From positions 1-64,000 of IMG/VR virus record IMGVR_UViG_3300047316_000726: a stretch of DNA of 64,000 nt; one strand, 5' to 3'. Positions within the stretch are counted from its first letter, which is position 1. Each line of letters starts with the position of its first letter. The translations under genes and the position numbers were made by a program. This DNA is from a virus. This document shows, one piece after another, positions 2,697-53,084 of the stretch. The notes beneath the pieces are model-generated. The model saw only the letters and a program-made list of their open reading frames with translations. It had not been told where the DNA came from and ran no database searches.

Positions 2697-2741
2697 CCTC
2701 CGCCGCCGTCACTTGCAACCAGCCATATGAGGGAGATCGGG

Positions 2742-4226
2742 ATGGACGAGCACACCAGGCACACGCCGGTGATGCCCTCCGAGATGCCAGAGCCGAACGG
2801 AGGCTGGCGCAACCGATGGGCGCGCCGGCGCGCTGAACGCGCCTTCGCCCGGAACTTGGACACTGACTCCCGCCAGCGCGCTGCCAGGCAGCACGCCGAC
2901 GACCGCGCGGCTGGCCACGGCGAAGACCCGATGCCCTGGCCCTTGCGGATCCTCGCGGCGTTCGTTGCGATCGTCGTGCTCGCCGTGGCGACGGTGATCG
3001 CGGCGGTAGTCGTCGGTGCCGGAGTCGGCTTCTACGACACCCACCTCGCCGTCAAGGACATCTCCTTCGCGGCCCTAGGAATCGCAACACCCCTCAACCT
3101 GCCCACGTTCACACCCCTGGCCACTGAGGGCCTGGTGTGGTCAACCACTCTGCTCGCGATCGTCATGGTTCTGCTGAACCGGACCGCGACCTTGTGGACG
3201 CGCAGCATGTGGGCCTTCGCGTCCATCGCGGCGTTCGTGAATACCTGGTACGCGATCCTCGACGAGCACGACCTGTTCGGCGGTGTGCTTCGAGGCAGCC
3301 TGTCGCTGGCAGGCCCGTACCTGGTGCACCTGTTCGTGTTGTGGTGCCGGCACCTGCGCACGGGACGGACGTTGGCGCAGGCCCGGATCGACATGGAGAT
3401 CCGCTGGCACACCATCGGGAAGATCGCGGTGGCCGTGCTGGTCATGGCGGCCCGGCACGGGCGTCATCCGGCGATCGCACTGCGAGCGTTCGGCTACTGG
3501 CTGGGCATCGACGGCTGGACCTATCGGGCCGCGTGGCGGGCCGCGTCTATCGGCTACCGGCGCCGCGTTCAGGAACGCCTCAATGGTGACGCCACGAAGA
3601 CGGCCGAGCGCCACCCGGCCGCGGCCAAAGACACCACTCCGGCCGCCAGTAGCGACGCGGCCGAACAGGGCGGCCAGGCCCCCGTTGATGAGGACCACAG
3701 CCAGCATGTAACTGGCGGCGTACTCACGGCCGAACGACCGGCATTCGACCCGGCCGAACTCGCCGAGTTTCAGGCGGCCCTGGATGACCCGGGTTTCACA
3801 TGGGAAAGGTTCGCTGACCAGCCAGGACAGGCGGCCGAACAGGGCGGCCGAGCGGCGGCCGACGACGGACGAACGACGCGGCCGAAGACGGCCGAGGATG
3901 CGGCCGGTCCCCGGCCGCAGGGTGGCCGGAACGCGGCCGGGCCGCCTACCGGCGACGGCCGTAAGACGACTGGACTACGTCTTCGGCCGCGTACACCCCG
4001 GCGGCCGAAGCAGCGACTGGCCGGCTCGTCGAAGGCGGCCGAGGTCGATGTCACCGATCTCCTCCCGGCCGCCCGCGAGGTAGCGGACGAACTGGGCGCC
4101 CGGCTGCGGCGCGACAGCCTGCTGAAGGGGCTTCGGGAGCGCGGAATGACGGTCGGCGGCCAGCGCAAGAAGGCGATCTACGACGCCGTGCGAGCCGAAC
4201 GAGACAGCGAATCTACCGGCAAGTAA
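2742..4226 (+). CDS. DUF2637-type membrane protein of the transfer operon
   Basis: 494 aa from ATG 2742, chosen because GGGAG lies 7 bp upstream; an earlier ATG at 2727 has no ribosome binding site. Hydrophobic segments at about residues 65-90, 100-150 and 160-195 match the DUF2637 membrane region, including the PLATEGLVW element. The C-terminal half is hydrophilic, Ala/Gly/Arg-rich and encoded by DNA saturated with CGGCCG. The last 60 residues look folded (DLLPAAREVADELGARLRR...), possibly a small winged helix. DUF2637 (Spd-like) proteins are a hallmark of actinomycete conjugative elements, where they are thought to assist spread of DNA between hyphal compartments. Confidence 0.75.
   Translation: MDEHTRHTPVMPSEMPEPNGGWRNRWARRRAERAFARNLDTDSRQRAARQHADDRAAGHGEDPMPWPLRILAAFVAIVVLAVATVIAAVVVGAGVGFYDTHLAVKDISFAALGIATPLNLPTFTPLATEGLVWSTTLLAIVMVLLNRTATLWTRSMWAFASIAAFVNTWYAILDEHDLFGGVLRGSLSLAGPYLVHLFVLWCRHLRTGRTLAQARIDMEIRWHTIGKIAVAVLVMAARHGRHPAIALRAFGYWLGIDGWTYRAAWRAASIGYRRRVQERLNGDATKTAERHPAAAKDTTPAASSDAAEQGGQAPVDEDHSQHVTGGVLTAERPAFDPAELAEFQAALDDPGFTWERFADQPGQAAEQGGRAAADDGRTTRPKTAEDAAGPRPQGGRNAAGPPTGDGRKTTGLRLRPRTPRRPKQRLAGSSKAAEVDVTDLLPAAREVADELGARLRRDSLLKGLRERGMTVGGQRKKAIYDAVRAERDSESTGK
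3601..4071. repeat. Dense array of CGGCCG hexamers
   Basis: About 19 copies of the palindrome CGGCCG occur in 470 bp, inside the 3' half of the DUF2637-type gene. Many fall in the codon context GCGGCCGAA (Ala-Ala-Glu). It may only reflect a low-complexity protein with biased codons, or serve as a protein-binding array such as a transfer locus. Confidence 0.5.
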
Positions 4227-5573: not shown

Positions 5574-6584
5574 ATGGAGTTGGCCCTGCTCGTCGCGTGG
5601 CTGGTGATCCACGCCGCATATCGGGGAGGTGTGGGCACCTACTGCGCGGTCAAAAAGATCGAGCCGCCGTGGGTGAAGAACAAGACCGAACGCCTGGTCA
5701 ATCGCGAGATCCGCCAGGGCCGCCGCTACGAGGCACTGCGGTCGAAGCGGACCCTGCGCGGCTTCTTCGGCCGCCTGTGGGGCGACCTGTGGGAAGACGC
5801 GAACCGTGCCCAGGACGAGCGCCGTGCCTGGCGCCTCAACGGCGCACCCCGCCGGTCGTGGCGTGACCGCGCCAACCAGTGGCGGGATGCGACTCAGCCT
5901 GGGATGCGGACACGGCTGGCCGGCGTGTGGTTGCAGGAGTGGTGGCAGCGTGCCCGCCAGTGGGGCGAGCGGTTGATGTCCGCCTCCCTCCCTCACCGCA
6001 AGGACACCGACGGCGAGGAGCTGCCGGAGGCGCCCGATCTGGAACCGGTCGCCGCGCCTGAGGTACCTGAGCCGCAGCAGGAGCCGACACCGCAGGACAA
6101 CCCGCCACCACCACCGCCACCACCAGCCGCCGAACCCGAACCTGCGCCGCAGCCTCCGCCGGCCGTTGTCGAGCCTTCCCCGACCGGGCGCCCGCAACTC
6201 CGCGCCGTCCCGAACCCCCCAACCCAGCCGGTGACCCCACCAGCTGGAACCGACACGCAAGGAGAACAACCAGACATGACCGCCCCCGCAGAGATCACCA
6301 ACGTCCAGCGCGTACGCCAGTTCGCCGAGCAGGTCGAGAAGCACGGCAACGAGGACTGGCCCGCGAAGCTGGACACCGCCGAGCAGCAGATCACCGCGAT
6401 CGGCCTGAACAACGACCCGGCTGTCACGGCCGCGCTCGGCGAGATTCGGGAGGCAGTGGCGAGGGTCGCCGCCGGCGGAGTCGCACTCGCGGCTGCCCTG
6501 CCGAGGCACGAGGACGCCGCAGAGCGCATCACCGGCCTCGGTGACGCCGCCGCCACCAACATCACCGCCTACCAGAACCAGTAA
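5574..6584 (+). CDS. Membrane-anchored proline-rich transfer protein, unknown
   Basis: 336 aa. One N-terminal hydrophobic segment (ELALLVAWLVIHAAY), then a basic Trp/Arg-rich region (residues 30-140), a Pro-rich spacer (about 160-240, runs of Pro) and a C-terminal predicted helical region. The layout, anchor plus basic cytoplasmic domain plus Pro spacer, fits an accessory protein working beside the DNA translocase encoded next. No recognised domain. Confidence 0.6.
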   Translation: MELALLVAWLVIHAAYRGGVGTYCAVKKIEPPWVKNKTERLVNREIRQGRRYEALRSKRTLRGFFGRLWGDLWEDANRAQDERRAWRLNGAPRRSWRDRANQWRDATQPGMRTRLAGVWLQEWWQRARQWGERLMSASLPHRKDTDGEELPEAPDLEPVAAPEVPEPQQEPTPQDNPPPPPPPPAAEPEPAPQPPPAVVEPSPTGRPQLRAVPNPPTQPVTPPAGTDTQGEQPDMTAPAEITNVQRVRQFAEQVEKHGNEDWPAKLDTAEQQITAIGLNNDPAVTAALGEIREAVARVAAGGVALAAALPRHEDAAERITGLGDAAATNITAYQNQ

Positions 6585-6605
6585 CCCGTTTCGACCGATC
6601 CCGTG

Positions 6606-6632
6606 CGCGCCAGACCGACCATGTCTGGCGCG
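6606..6632. repeat. Hairpin in front of the translocase gene
   Basis: CGCGCCAGAC (6606-6615) and GTCTGGCGCG (6623-6632) form a perfect 10-bp stem with a 7-base loop, in the 88-bp gap before the TraB-like gene. There is no U-tract, so an attenuator, mRNA-processing site or transfer-associated DNA site are all possible. Confidence 0.4.
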
Positions 6633-6672
6633 TGCGGAACCAGCCGGAACCCACAGACGAGAGGGCGGTGCG

Positions 6673-8763
6673 ATGGACATCGGTGAACCACAACCAGGAA
6701 CAGCACTGCTGGGCGGCCCGGAGCCGTTCACCGTCGACAGTGACACCACACCCACCAGGCCGTGGCGGACCACGTTGCGCCGCCAGTTCATGCCGCTCCC
6801 GGTGGCTGGTTTGCTGTGGTGCGCGGCCACCGTCGCGCACGCGGCACCGGAAACCTGGCCGGTCGCCGCACCGTCGGCGGTCGCCGTCTACTTCGTCGCC
6901 GCCGTGGCCTTCTGGACCAGCTGGGCTGCTGAGCATCCGGAGACCCGCGCCCAGCGGCGCCGCTGGGCCACCACCGTCATCATCGCTGGCGGGGCATGGC
7001 TGCTGTGGGCCGCGACATTCGGCCCCACCGAGGTCGCGACGCTGCTGCTCGCCGGTGGGGGTGCGGCGCTGATGCTGCCGTACTGGACTCGCAACAGCCC
7101 CTGGCAACCCCACCTCGATCACGACGACGAGGAAGCCCTCGAGGAGTTGCCTGAGGCGCCGACGCTGGAGCCAGTCGAGGTCCTCGACTCCCGAACCTCG
7201 ACCCAGATGTTCTGGGACACCGTCGTTGCCGTGACCGTGTCCGCACTCCGCGGCACCTACCTGTGCGACCCGCAGGTCACCGACGAGTTCGAGCAGTACA
7301 CCATCCAACTCGCGGGCGGAACCCAAACCACCGCCGGCGCGATGGGCGCGGCGACGAACGTCGCCTCAGCGTTCGGTCGCGGCCTGGACACCGTGTCGGT
7401 CCTCCCTCACCCCAGCGGCGCCCAGGACAAGGCGTTGCTGCGGCTACCCATCGCGAACCCGCTACAGACCACGTTCTGGTACCCGGGCCCCGAGCAGGCC
7501 ATCGACCTGCGCGACGGCAACATCCGGGTCCTCATCGGCTACCGCGGTGACGGCACCCCCGTGTGGTGGACGTTCTACCTCGCCGACTTCGGCGGTCTCG
7601 GTGGCGCTGTGTTCGGCGACACCGGATCCGGTAAGAGCGAACTGCTCCGCAGCCTCATCACGTCCGCCGCCTACAGCAACCTGATCACCCCGATCGTCGC
7701 GTGCCCGCAGGGCGGCGCCAGCTATCCGATGTGGATGAACAACGGGCACTGGCCCGCGGCGAACATCGACGAGATCCTCCGGCAGGGCCGCGCCCTGTTG
7801 AAGGCGCACGCCTCCCGCTCCGTGCTCAACAAGCTGATGAACCGCGACATCCACATCCCCACCCCGCAAGCACCCGGCCTGATCTGGGTTGTCGACGAGT
7901 TCCACAAGATGAAGGGCAACACCGAGTTCTACGACATCGCCGACACCCTCGAACGCGAAGGCCGCAAGACGTTCATCCGCCTGCTGGCCGCAGACCAGGA
8001 CCCCAGCGTCCCCGCCACCTTCGGGAACCGGTCGACACTGCGGTACTCGCTGCTGGCCGCCCAGGCGGTCACGCTGCGCCTGGGCGGCAACGTCGACTCC
8101 ATGCTGCCGGGCATGCAGCTCGATCCCAGCAAGCTCGCCAAAACGTTCCCCGACGGCACACCCACCGCAGGCCTGGGCGTCCTGGTGGGAGAGTCCGAGG
8201 CGTTCCGGGTCGCTCGCCTGCGCGACGCCGCCGGGCTGGCCGCCAACGCGCCGACCGGCGCCATCGAGCCCGCAGTCGCGAACCGCATGGGCGAGGACTA
8301 CACCCAGCGCCACGCCCGCAACCTCACCGACATCGCCGAAGCCGCCGCCGAGATGGAGCAGTGGGACCCCGAACTGGTCGCCGCCCTCGTCGCGGACAAC
8401 CCGGAGCTGGCCGCCGCACTACCGCGGGTACGAGCGGAGCAGGCACGCCGTGCAGCCCAAGCCGCCACCCAGCCCGCCGGAACACCTGCCGCAACTGTGG
8501 TGCTGGATGTGCCGTCCATTCCCACGCTGCAGCTCATCCTCCCGTCGCCCACGGCACCGCCGCGTACGTGGACGTGCGTCGAGCGCGTCGACGACCTGCT
8601 CCGCCAAGGCATCACCCAGTTCGGCGAACTCATGGCCAGGGCCCGCAAGCCTGATGGCACGACCTACTCCGAGACCGCGATCCGCGGAGCACTGCGCGAC
8701 CTGATCAACCAGGGACGTGCGCGCGACGGTGGCCACGGCCTCTTCGAGACCACAGCAGCCTGA
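6673..8763 (+). CDS. FtsK/SpoIIIE-type conjugal DNA translocase (TraB-like)
   Basis: 696 aa from ATG 6673, preceded by GAGAGGG. Two N-terminal membrane segments at about residues 40-80 and 95-135. The ATPase core has a Walker A GDTGSGKSE near residue 315 and a Walker B LIWVVDEF near 403-410. The C-terminal 70 residues form a winged-helix-like DNA-reading domain (VDDLLRQGITQFGELM, TAIRGALRDLINQGRA), as in TraB and the FtsK gamma domain. In Streptomyces-type conjugation one hexameric TraB translocates double-stranded DNA between mycelial cells, so this single gene could provide transfer. It is the core of the module. Confidence 0.85.
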   Translation: MDIGEPQPGTALLGGPEPFTVDSDTTPTRPWRTTLRRQFMPLPVAGLLWCAATVAHAAPETWPVAAPSAVAVYFVAAVAFWTSWAAEHPETRAQRRRWATTVIIAGGAWLLWAATFGPTEVATLLLAGGGAALMLPYWTRNSPWQPHLDHDDEEALEELPEAPTLEPVEVLDSRTSTQMFWDTVVAVTVSALRGTYLCDPQVTDEFEQYTIQLAGGTQTTAGAMGAATNVASAFGRGLDTVSVLPHPSGAQDKALLRLPIANPLQTTFWYPGPEQAIDLRDGNIRVLIGYRGDGTPVWWTFYLADFGGLGGAVFGDTGSGKSELLRSLITSAAYSNLITPIVACPQGGASYPMWMNNGHWPAANIDEILRQGRALLKAHASRSVLNKLMNRDIHIPTPQAPGLIWVVDEFHKMKGNTEFYDIADTLEREGRKTFIRLLAADQDPSVPATFGNRSTLRYSLLAAQAVTLRLGGNVDSMLPGMQLDPSKLAKTFPDGTPTAGLGVLVGESEAFRVARLRDAAGLAANAPTGAIEPAVANRMGEDYTQRHARNLTDIAEAAAEMEQWDPELVAALVADNPELAAALPRVRAEQARRAAQAATQPAGTPAATVVLDVPSIPTLQLILPSPTAPPRTWTCVERVDDLLRQGITQFGELMARARKPDGTTYSETAIRGALRDLINQGRARDGGHGLFETTAA

Positions 8764-44194: not shown

Positions 44195-44222
44195 GTGGAC
44201 CTCCACTGTCGATCAGAGCGAG

Positions 44223-44296
44223 TGACGAGAGCGGGATTCGAACCCGCAACGATGCGGGTTTGAGCCGCACGCCTCTGCCAGTTGGGCTACCCCGCC
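44223..44296 (-). tRNA. tRNA-like gene with CAA anticodon, short variable loop
   Basis: On the minus strand: acceptor GGCGGGG pairs with TCTCGTC (three G-U pairs), a D-arm GCC/GGC with loop containing CTGGCAGA, anticodon stem TGCGG/CCGCA with loop CTCAAAC (anticodon CAA, Leu codon UUG), variable region of only 5 nt, T-arm GCGGG-TTCGAAT-CCCGC, discriminator A, no encoded CCA. Leu tRNAs normally carry a long variable arm, which is missing. Probably a phage-carried tRNA or tRNA-like element. Confidence 0.75.
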
Positions 44297-49617: not shown

Positions 49618-49938
49618 TCACTCGGGTGGCCTCATTGTGGTGAGTAGCACGTTGAATGTGATCTTGGAGCCATGGGGGCATTCCAACACGTAGACGGACG
49701 TGTAGAGCGTCTTTGTGGGGTCTTCAGGATCTTCCCTGCTGGTGGTGCCGGTCGAGACCACTCGGGTGTCAATGCAGCTGGTGAGGTGCTCGTCCGGGAA
49801 CGAGTCGTGGAGGAGGCGGAACACCGCCACGTTGTCACCCATGCCGTCCATGGTGACACCGGGAACCGTCACCCGCTCGTCACCCATCATCCCGAACCAC
49901 TCTGTCGACAGCGCATCCTCGATTGGAGTGTCCGCCAT
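49618..49938 (-). CDS. Small phage protein, unknown
   Basis: 106 aa from ATG 49938. Acidic; contains VAVFRLLHDSFPDEHLTSC and ends YVLECPHGSKITFNVLLTT. No domain recognised. Its start lies at the edge of the GGAC repeat array. Confidence 0.55.
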   Translation of the reverse strand: MADTPIEDALSTEWFGMMGDERVTVPGVTMDGMGDNVAVFRLLHDSFPDEHLTSCIDTRVVSTGTTSREDPEDPTKTLYTSVYVLECPHGSKITFNVLLTTMRPPE

Positions 49939-49976
49939 GGATGGTAGGTGTCCGGGGTGGTGTCCGGCCAGGAGAG

Positions 49977-50085
49977 TGGACGGGTGTTGGACGTTCTTGG
50001 ACGGTGTGGACGATCCCGGACAGTCAAGCCGGACAGCCGGACAGTGGGTGCGGACACCCCGGACAACGGTGGACAACCCTGGACA
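49977..50085. repeat. Helically phased (C/T)GGAC repeat array
   Basis: Eleven copies of (C/T)GGAC begin at 49977, 49988, 49998, 50007, 50017, 50030, 50038, 50051, 50060, 50070 and 50080, on average 10.3 bp apart, so all lie on one face of the helix; the last seven are followed by A. Inverted copies (TGTCC) flank on the left at 49929, 49949 and 49961, and more scattered copies continue to about 50205. No gene is called over the core array. Confidence 0.65.
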
Positions 50086-50109
50086 GCGGGTGTGAACTCG
50101 CGTGGCATT

Positions 50110-50352
50110 TTATGCCCCGTGCAGGTCAGAGGGCCGCGACTGTCCTGGCTGGACACGGCCGGACAGTGCTACGGACACCCCGAGGACGACACCGACTCCC
50201 TGGACAGCGAGCGCGACGTGGTCATGACCGGCTGCTCTGGCGACGAACGCGGCTACGGCGGCCAGGACTTGCAACACCTTGAGGACACCCGCGGCTCGGG
50301 CTGTACGACTACTGGGGCGGTGGGGTTGTGGACTCATGCCGCCGAGCATCAA
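50110..50352 (-). CDS. Small membrane protein, tentative
   Basis: 80 aa from ATG 50352 (or a later ATG at MSPQPH). Two hydrophobic segments (VLKVLQVLAAVAAFVARAAG and VALAVQGVGVVLGVSVAL). No good ribosome binding site. Lies beside the GGAC array and could be a by-product of the repeats. Confidence 0.4.
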   Translation of the reverse strand: MMLGGMSPQPHRPSSRTARAAGVLKVLQVLAAVAAFVARAAGHDHVALAVQGVGVVLGVSVALSGRVQPGQSRPSDLHGA

Positions 50353-50394
50353 CGACCCCGGCCAGCCCGCGCACAGATAGGAGAGTGAGAGGGC

Positions 50395-50441
50395 GGCGGG
50401 GACAAGAGGAAGTGGTGTTCATCCATCTGTTGGTCCCCGCC
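50395..50441 (-). terminator. Terminator-like inverted repeat
   Basis: GGCGGGGAC (50395-50403) / GTCCCCGCC (50433-50441), 9-bp perfect stem with a 29-base loop, downstream of the minus-strand gene ending at 50474. Confidence 0.45.
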
Positions 50442-50473
50442 ACCACGAGCACCGTACCGGGACGACACCGGGC

Positions 50474-50791
50474 TCACGCTGCGGCGCGGCCAGCCAGTTC
50501 ACCCTCGGTCCATGCCTGCCGCCACAGCTCCTCCAGGCGCCCGACCGGGTCATGCCAGCCTGACTCGGTCATGTCCAGGCCGTCGTGGAGCCACTGTGCT
50601 GGCGGATCAGGGCAGGTGCCGTCGCCGACATGCACGAGTGCCCAGCCGCGGGCACGGAGGAACTCCTGGAACTGTCCCTGGGCGAGGCTCTCGCCGACGG
50701 CGTCGGAGATCGCCTCGCAGATCGCGTCGGCCGGGCGCTCCGGGCGCTGATCGACCTGACGGCGCCGTAGCAGCTCTACCTCGTCGCTCAT
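50474..50791 (-). CDS. Small phage protein, unknown
   Basis: 105 aa from ATG 50791. Helical start (DEVELLRRRQVDQRPERPAD) and TESGWHDPVGRLEELWRQA near the end; resembles WDGH/phage conserved small proteins only in composition. Directly follows the next upstream gene. Confidence 0.55.
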   Translation of the reverse strand: MSDEVELLRRRQVDQRPERPADAICEAISDAVGESLAQGQFQEFLRARGWALVHVGDGTCPDPPAQWLHDGLDMTESGWHDPVGRLEELWRQAWTEGELAGRAAA

Positions 50792-50793
50792 GG

Positions 50794-51432
50794 TCAAAGT
50801 CCCAGCTTCTCGAGCGGGTTGGTCAGATTGACGAACAGCGTGATCACGTCCGCGTCGTACGGCCACCGCGCCACACCGCCGTCGATGTCCAGGTGGCAGA
50901 GGGTGCGGCTGGGCATGGTGTAGCCGATCTCCAGCGGAACTCGGCCAGGACCGATGTGGTGCGGCATGATCAGACGCTCGGCGTAGTCACGCGGGCATGA
51001 CGGCAGCAGGCTCGCCGCCACGGTGCGCTCGACGAGGATCGGCTCGTCCCACTCCAAGTAGCCGTCCTGGTCGGCGCAGTTCTGATCGACATCGACGACA
51101 GCGCGAAACGGGCCAGGCAGATCAGCGACCGCCGCCGCGTTCTCGGCACGGCAGCGATCCGGCTGCGGCGAGGGCACGCGGCCGATGCGGATCTGTCCGT
51201 AATTGCCGACGTGCCTTCCTGCGAAGACGCAGACGAACGCGGCGACCTGGTTGAGCGGCCAGTTATTACGGGAACTCCGGAAGATCTGGCCGATCGTGTC
51301 CACGTAGCTGGCCTTGAATCTGCGCCCGGCTTTCAAGTCGGCGCGGACGCGGGCGAACTCGGCGGCTCCTTCCGGGTCGGACAGGATGCTGGAGAGCGCC
51401 ACGTCTGCGGCTTGCTCGTGAATGGTGGTCAT
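50794..51432 (-). CDS. Phage protein next to the integrase, unknown
   Basis: 212 aa. Starts MTTIHEQAADVALSSILSD; a mixed alpha/beta middle (FVCVFAGRHVGNYGQIRIG) and a C-terminal strand-rich part (RPYDADVITLFVN-like). Overlaps the integrase stop by about 4 bp, so it is co-translated. No domain recognised; perhaps a directionality or control protein by position. Confidence 0.55.
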   Translation of the reverse strand: MTTIHEQAADVALSSILSDPEGAAEFARVRADLKAGRRFKASYVDTIGQIFRSSRNNWPLNQVAAFVCVFAGRHVGNYGQIRIGRVPSPQPDRCRAENAAAVADLPGPFRAVVDVDQNCADQDGYLEWDEPILVERTVAASLLPSCPRDYAERLIMPHHIGPGRVPLEIGYTMPSRTLCHLDIDGGVARWPYDADVITLFVNLTNPLEKLGL

Positions 51433-52499
51433 GGGCGGGGAACTCCTCGACTCGCGTGGGCAGTAGGCGTGCCACCAGCGAGCGCGGCGGCGACCAAGGT
51501 GGACGGGTCACGTTCGAGTTCGTCGGCGACGTGGTCGTAGAGCTGGGTGACGGCGGCGGAGGAGTGGCCGAGCGCGTCGCGGCGGTCTTCCAGCGTCGCG
51601 CCGAGCTCGCGGGCGATCGTGTTCCAGGTATGCCGCAGCGAGTGCGGGGTGATCCGGTGGGGCATCGGTACGCCGGCGAGCGCGGCCATGCGCTGCACGA
51701 GTCGGAAGACCTGGTGGCGGCTGACTCGGCGACCGTCCCGGGTCAGCAGCAGCGCGCGGTCGGCGTCCAGATTGCCCGGCGCAGGCGCAGGCCGAGCCGC
51801 GAGGTAGGTGTCCAGCTTTGCGCCGAGTTCGGGTGGGATGACGCGGTCGCGCATCTTGCTGCCCTTCATACGGACGGCGATGATGCGCTTGCCCTTCTTC
51901 TGGCCGAGGTCGTCCAGGTTCGCCCCGCAGCCTTCGGACACGCGGATACCGAGGTCCACCAGCAGTCCGAAGATCAGCGTGACGCACTCGGCGGTCAGCG
52001 TCCGTGGTGTTCCGGTCTCGCTCTTCGCTTGGACCGCGGTGGCCTGCTGGCGGTCGAGACTGGATGTGGGGGAGTGGGTGCGGTCGTACTTCGGGCGCTT
52101 GAGGTCCTTGGCCGGGTTGGCCTTCAGCACGTCGGCCCGGACGAGGTAGGTGTACCAGCTGGACACTGCGGCGAGCATGTTCGCCCTGGTGTTGGGCTTG
52201 TAGGGGCGCTTGGTGGTCGGACTGGTCATCGAGGCGAGGTGGACTCCGTACATCGTGATCTCGGGCAGACCGACGGTCAGCGGGTCGAGGTCGCGGCTGA
52301 TGCACCAGTCGAGGTAGATGTTGAGCTGCCGCCGGTAGGACTCGCGGGTGTGCTCGCTGTCGGCCTGCTCGCCGAGCCACGCCATCACAAGCGCGCCGAG
52401 CGTGTGGCCCGTGCGGGTGCGCATGGAGAGCAGCGCGCCGCGCCGCGCGGCTGGTGAAGCTGGGTCGGCAACCGGGTTGATGATCACAAGGTCGGCCAC
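51429..52499 (-). CDS. Tyrosine recombinase (phage integrase)
   Basis: 356 aa from GTG 52499 with GAAGGGAAA upstream; a longer frame fused upstream is an artefact of a frameshifted gene. N-terminal SAM-like core-binding domain (about residues 30-140: GEQADSEHTRESYRRQLNIY). Catalytic residues: Arg in DLGIRVSEGCG, His-x-x-Arg in TPHSLRHTWNT, His in LGHSSAAVTQLYDH and the nucleophile Tyr in the same motif. Integrates or resolves the element. The attP is not identifiable by eye. Confidence 0.92.
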   Translation of the reverse strand: MADLVIINPVADPASPAARRGALLSMRTRTGHTLGALVMAWLGEQADSEHTRESYRRQLNIYLDWCISRDLDPLTVGLPEITMYGVHLASMTSPTTKRPYKPNTRANMLAAVSSWYTYLVRADVLKANPAKDLKRPKYDRTHSPTSSLDRQQATAVQAKSETGTPRTLTAECVTLIFGLLVDLGIRVSEGCGANLDDLGQKKGKRIIAVRMKGSKMRDRVIPPELGAKLDTYLAARPAPAPGNLDADRALLLTRDGRRVSRHQVFRLVQRMAALAGVPMPHRITPHSLRHTWNTIARELGATLEDRRDALGHSSAAVTQLYDHVADELERDPSTLVAAALAGGTPTAHASRGVPRP

Positions 52500-52629
52500 G
52501 GATTTCCCTTCGTTGCGCCCATAAGCGTGATTATGCTCGGTTTTCCTAGGTGCCCCAACCGGTCCGCCCCGATCGGGCCGGTGGTCAAGTCCGTCCGGTT
52601 CGGACGGTCCCCCAGCGTGCGGTGCTGAT
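52500..52629. other. Short intergenic region with hairpins upstream of the integrase
   Basis: CCGTCC (52591-52596) and GGACGG (52602-52607) form a hairpin, and GCCCCGATCGGGC is a near-palindrome to its left. Possible terminator for the upstream gene or integrase control region. No tRNA-like attP core seen. Confidence 0.35.
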
Positions 52630-52994
52630 CTACGCGGTGCCGACGTCGCTTTCCTCGGCGTCCATGACGATCGGGTCGTCCAGGGTGGCCGCCACGATGG
52701 TGACCACCTCGACATGCCCCCCCGAGCCTGTTCCTCGGTCGAGTACCGGTGGCAGTCCAGGTCCATGCTGCTGCCCTCGGCGAACACCATCGTCTCGAAG
52801 ATCATCGGGATGCCGTCGCAGTGGCTGTGGTCCAGGCCGAGCCAGACGGTCGAGATGTCGAAGCTCTTGGTCGGGTCAGCTGCGCTGATCACTTTGGATC
52901 GAGCGACCCGCTTGTAGGTCATGTCTCGCAGGAGCCGCTCGACCTCTTGCATGTCGTTGATGGGGATGCCTGAGCGGTCGAACCAGAGGTCCAT
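52630..52994 (-). pseudogene. Phage gene with a frameshift in a C7/G7 tract
   Basis: Starts ATG 52994 (MDLWFDRSGIPINDMQEV). The frame is coding through IFETMVFAEGSSMDLDCHRY and STEEQA, then breaks at seven C on the plus strand (52717-52723). After one added base it continues coding-like (GHVEVVTIVAATLDDPIVMD) to a stop at 52630. Either a sequencing or replication error in the homopolymer, a programmed frameshift, or phase variation. Confidence 0.6.
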
Positions 52995-53084
52995 CGGCGC
53001 TGCCCTCTCGTGTCGATCTTGGTGGGGTGGTCCCCCGGTGTATCGGGTCCTAGGGGCCCGAACACGGTGCAACGGGTCGGACGA

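Follow-up and report, generated by a model that had tools for sequence, protein, structure and literature searches.

The 64-kb window of viral DNA analysed here (the whole stretch, 64,000 nucleotides) carries at positions 49929-50205 an array of helically spaced GGACA words. Most likely the virus's replication machinery docks there, because like arrays sit in or beside the DNA-replication genes of many unrelated viruses. More specifically, its sequence and the comparisons below give about an even chance that it is an initiator-binding iteron array of a GGACA class, acting as a second origin or a replication-control site detached from the replication genes.

Layout, phase and surroundings of the array

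The array begins with an inverted block (49929-49965, minus strand) of three TGTCC words, equivalent to GGACA on the minus strand, at 49929, 49949 and 49961. It continues into the main direct block (49977-50084, plus strand), which consists of 11 copies of (C/T)GGAC(A/G). The GGAC cores of this block start at 49978, 49989, 49999, 50008, 50018, 50031, 50039, 50052, 50061, 50071 and 50081, with successive steps of 11, 10, 9, 10, 13, 8, 13, 9, 10 and 10 bp, and C or T precedes every one of them. A 66-bp gap follows (50085-50150), containing a short AT run and, read directly from the sequence, the inverted repeat GGCAT-TTT-ATGCC at 50104-50116. A lone inverted TGTCC (50141-50145, minus strand) stands just ahead of the second direct block (50151-50205, plus strand), whose five GGAC words start at 50151, 50161, 50173, 50184 and 50202, bringing the direct copies to 16 (11 + 5). 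The preliminary description had reported eleven (C/T)GGAC motifs about 10.3 bp apart across 49977-50085 with further copies on both sides; both statements are borne out, with a mean spacing of 10.3 bp, inverted copies at 49929-49965 and 50141, and direct copies at 50151-50205.

The regularity of the spacing is pronounced. Phase coherence of the 11 main-block sites reaches R = 0.85 at 10.3-10.4 bp, against 0.16 at 9.5 bp, and that of all 16 direct sites peaks at 0.81 at 10.2 bp. The earlier characterisation as a "one-face" array is accurate on average and not site by site, because single spacings range from 8 to 13 bp. When the 64 kb was simulated 60 times with a first-order Markov model and searched for chains of any 4-mer at 8-13-bp spacing, the longest simulated chain was 5 units, versus 11 observed, placing the array far beyond chance. 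No other GGAC cluster in the 64-kb window is as dense, and across the 77-kb source record the array also ranks first for GGACA/TGTCC, with 15 in 300 bp where the mean is 1.0. Scatter of GGACA in the same phase elsewhere in the element, named beforehand as the observation that would count against the array, was looked for and not seen.

Most of the array lies in a stretch of ~535 bp (49939-50473) that, judged by open reading frames, holds no convincing gene and separates two minus-strand genes. The array spacings are not multiples of 3, and candidate reading frames across it look non-coding by eye. The region has no match to a terminator or to the sigma-70 consensus, the one promoter model searched. 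The 106-aa gene at 49618-49938 (minus strand) starts at the array edge, where the TGTCC at 49929 overlaps its start, and no relative of it was found in phages, plasmids or IMG/VR. The upstream neighbour, a 105-aa gene at 50474-50791 (minus strand), has no relative found in plasmids. Single-sequence structure models of both proteins are of low confidence (mostly strands for the 106-aa protein, helical for the 105-aa one) and too poor to use. Neither flanking gene matches a known family and no replication gene stands beside the array, in agreement with the preliminary remark that no dedicated protein could be recognised there.

Further upstream, a 212-aa protein (50794-51432, minus strand) without a Pfam or PHROG match is conserved in Streptomyces and Thermobispora phage-plasmids, where it usually adjoins a tyrosine recombinase; it is possibly a recombination partner. 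Additional members of this family occur in Sinosporangium and Paractinoplanes. The next ORF (51429-53072, minus strand), 1.2 kb from the array, carries a tyrosine recombinase domain (Phage_integrase, 2.3e-18).

GGACA arrays and replication genes in other phages

IMG/VR was searched by pattern for GGAC arrays. At 102 loci among the matches listed, the longest ORF that overlapped or adjoined the array was scanned against PHROGs and Pfam. Many loci carry degenerate GGACA arrays with 10-11-bp spacing, in genomes of 34-73% G+C. Among the matches listed, about 40 of 102 loci have the array in or beside replication genes: the phrog_906 DNA polymerase/primase was found in 23/102, AAA_25 in 23/102, Prim-Pol in 9, and primosomal or initiation proteins in several more. 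Three control words of the same composition, scored as minima over the 25 commonest families listed, gave different profiles, with few or no primases or initiators in those lists. CAGG arrays fall in collagen-like tail fibre genes at no fewer than 60 of 102 loci, GAGC arrays in mixed genes with no primase among those 25 families, and GACG arrays mainly in head genes, with at least about two primases or initiators among the matches listed. Since GAGC arrays likewise favour 10-bp spacing, the link to replication genes, and not spacing alone, is the signature.

The position of these arrays relative to the gene is also consistent. In the primase-helicase cases, 24 of 24 array centres lie within 230 bp of the 3' end of the gene (7 groups at 40% identity), and in the O-like cases all 17 arrays lie inside the gene, mostly near its middle (12 groups). 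Nine loci (L062, L083, L094, L099, L101, L135, L146, L046 and L116) share one layout, in which an inverted block is followed by a direct block, a gap of ~50 bp and then one or two more copies. The window array, with three inverted words, eleven direct words, a 66-bp gap holding one inverted word, and five direct words, matches this order. It shares the GGACA word, the ~10-bp spacing and the block layout of phage replication-module arrays; its location is neither inside an O-like gene nor at a primase-helicase gene's 3' end. Aeromonas phage AeroV_348, reached through its primase in a search for a named phage bearing GGACA, has no array. No description of such arrays turned up in the open-access literature searched. 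At one locus of the GGAC-array survey (L053:8290-8333) the array lies close to where an actinobacterial membrane-protein gene begins; the protein, probably a DUF2637 member, has an HTH-like C-terminus.

The lambda origin lies inside gene O. The likeness to a lambda-type origin consists of clustered repeats, the O-like initiator binding proposed here, and the mid-gene repeats of the element's two O-like genes. Unlike that origin, the window array lies outside an initiator gene, uses a 5-6-bp word at ~10.3 bp rather than long iterons, and lacks a clear AT-rich region. SaPI origins have iteron clusters that flank an AT-rich region. The phage clusters located 3'-terminally in primase-helicase genes of the Prim-Pol/AAA_25 or VapE type use the same word, ~10-bp spacing and layout, whereas no primase-helicase gene was found in the window's incomplete record.

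The element, its initiator genes and the proposed function

The source record, 77,174 bases from IMG/VR without end repeats, is probably a fragment. It carries terminase and tail genes, the terminase genes ~12.5 kb from the array, and it encodes a GntR regulator and an FtsK/TraB-like protein (6541-8763) with relatives on actinobacterial plasmids. Its features point to an actinobacterial phage-plasmid related to pCQ4, pSAM1 and pFP4; it is the recombinase-partner pair that leads to this Streptomyces phage-plasmid group (pCQ4, pSAM1, pFP4 and others). At the DNA level, no similarity to known phages and only three short local matches to plasmids were found, and the window recombinase yielded no relative in IMG/VR. 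A tRNA-Leu (CAA) gene lies between phage genes at window positions 44222-44296 (minus strand).

Such an array was found in 0 of 31 recombinase-partner loci of relatives from plasmids, IMG/VR and GTDB; a de novo scan of the relatives' recombinase-region loci revealed no phased array, and in 11 genomes carrying relatives the array pattern occurs at control level only. With a looser three-unit pattern, the loci inspected among 395 actinobacterial genomes gave only chains of 3-6 units or perfect tandem repeats. The proteins common to the record and the GGACA phage loci are limited to terminase-type matches. Other repeat clusters were seen in the relatives. In pFP4, an origin-like AGTTACC cluster (L014:3278-3400) immediately follows a DUF927 gene that neighbours a primase/polymerase gene, and a centromere-like CTAGC cluster (L014:6266-6360) follows a ParA gene. 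In another phage-plasmid with the recombinase partner (record G009), several TGTCCGGACA palindromes lie inside one gene (L158:1460-2000) that by eye resembles an actinobacterial DUF2637-type membrane protein.

The element has two O-like initiator genes, both on the minus strand. The first (1-900; HTH_36, phrog_391) contains mid-gene GATCACTCTGATC-type repeats unlike the array. The second lies outside the window (record 69656-70951, L009:9656-10951; phrog_1032, 3e-13), and its mid-gene repeats are palindromes, TGTCCGGGA...TCCCGGACA, with TGTCC and GGACA half-sites 20 bp apart. These repeats form the second densest GGACA/TGTCC 300-bp window of the record (8, near 70133, with 6 as the third-ranking value). 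Because the repeats of its gene carry TGTCC...GGACA and rank next after the array, the second O-like initiator may itself read GGACA, as the sequence suggests. No relatives of this protein were found, and when the record's initiators were compared by profile with O-like proteins encoded at array loci, the similarity did not reach significance.

In the proposed mechanism, several copies of a replication protein would attach to the pentamers, approximately along one helical face, and the array DNA would be wrapped into a nucleoprotein complex. This complex might be an origin, opening in the AT-containing gap between the direct blocks, or it might titrate or pair the initiator and so set copy number, as an inc or handcuffing site. 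Of the proteins known in the element, the second O-like initiator would be the likeliest binder; alternatively, the array might be bound by a primase-helicase that the incomplete record has lost.

The evidence for an origin is mixed. A cluster of direct repeats beyond chance is present, and the long region around it holds no convincing gene. Against this, the array neither adjoins nor lies within an initiator or primase-helicase gene, the nearest known initiators being those at 1-900 and record 69656-70951; this differs from the supporting phage cases. Nor is a clear AT-rich unwinding region apparent: the most AT-rich 20-mer reaches only 11/20, and the gap offers only a short GGCATTTTATGCC run. 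It is these two points, no adjacent replication gene and no clear AT-rich region, that hold the origin or control reading at even. Further points against it are the absence of AAA_25 and Prim-Pol from the (incomplete) record, the 31 array-free loci of relatives, and flanking genes for which no relatives were found. In addition, the element may not need another origin, because each initiator gene already has its own repeats. A broader version, in which helical GGACA arrays are a common origin code of temperate phages and the array of the window is a member standing alone, away from replication genes, that may act as second origin or copy-control site, is doubtful; here the unrelated O-like and Prim-Pol/AAA_25 or VapE systems would use the same word, perhaps read by a shared or host factor.

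Alternative readings and implications

The preliminary description had offered a centromere, a stoperator cluster or a second origin. The origin gains from the many other phages and from the element's second initiator gene, and the stoperators lose. A partition site, with a ribbon-helix-helix or ParB/ParR-like adaptor on the phased repeats (type Ib, type II parC or RedRock-type), is unlikely. Low-copy phage-plasmids often need partition, and the array resembles the plan of R1 parC, in which a spacer separates two blocks of short, phased direct repeats; RedRock-type parS and plasmid parC are likewise short direct-repeat arrays, in RedRock's case in an extrachromosomal prophage, and pFP4, one of the relatives, encodes ParA and carries CTAGC repeats clustered near its recombinase. 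However, no partition gene adjoins the array, and neither ParA (AAA_31) nor ParB_N was matched in the fragmentary record, which tells against the centromere; the model for a ParM-type actin matched no control genome and carries no weight on this point. RedRock-type parS itself is ruled out by sequence: it consists of contiguous 8-bp GTCGAGTA-type tandem repeats without GGACA, beside parA/parB, and neither that motif nor those genes were found here. A conjugal transfer site (clt), on which the FtsK/TraB-like translocase (6541-8763; a C-terminal winged-helix segment is visible by eye) would load at the GGACA repeats, is quite unlikely. The element does encode this FtsK-like protein with plasmid relatives, and Streptomyces clt sites, such as those of pJV1 and pWTY27, are clusters of short GC-rich direct repeats of 7-9 bp with inverted repeats, that of pJV1 having nine CCGCACA(C/G)(C/G) copies (PMC3583192). 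Unlike the window array, which is ~41 kb from the FtsK-like gene in the record, the clt of pWTY27 and the other described examples lie at or near tra/kor genes (PMC3583192), and GGACA arrays in other phages track replication genes. The transfer module also holds the better candidate, the only other phased array in the window, with GGCCG words at 10-12 bp (3833-3945). That array lies within the ORF 2727-4226 (plus strand), whose product is a membrane protein with what looks like a DNA-binding segment at its C-terminus, and is a candidate clt or centromere.

Operator, packaging and attachment readings have less support. The array abuts the start of the minus-strand gene 49618-49938, for which it could be an operator or enhancer array, or it could be an immunity-repressor cluster; at least 16 sites are too many for an operator, the region has no promoter-like match (sigma-70 consensus only), and both versions are very unlikely. 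As regards stoperators, the sites are clustered, with the next densest 300-bp windows at 8 and 6, and genome-wide the observed count exceeds expectation only modestly (124 against 85). No stoperator pattern is seen, because the record has no other cluster of comparable size. Most improbable is a packaging (pac) or recombination (attP/resolution) site. The tyrosine recombinase ORF is near, the gap holds the short inverted repeat, and P1-type pac sites also use repeated short words. Against it, the terminase genes are distant, GGACA arrays elsewhere are rarely near terminase genes (among the matches listed), and the relatives' recombinase loci lack any array of this kind.

Iteron arrays as such are already known, and the detached, helically phased pentamer array of the window, read as a replicator, is a variant of them. 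What is new is that helically spaced GGACA arrays recur across IMG/VR phages and are tied to replication genes; the open-access literature searched yielded no account of one word marking replication modules in several unrelated phage systems. To our knowledge, the origins of most uncultured phages are not known. If phased GGACA arrays do mark origins across unrelated systems, such origins would be findable from sequence alone, and the recurrence of one word among several initiator families raises the question of what reads GGACA. If this holds for the phage-plasmid of the window, the element would use different replicons as a plasmid and in lytic growth, or would control its copy number at a site remote from its initiator gene.
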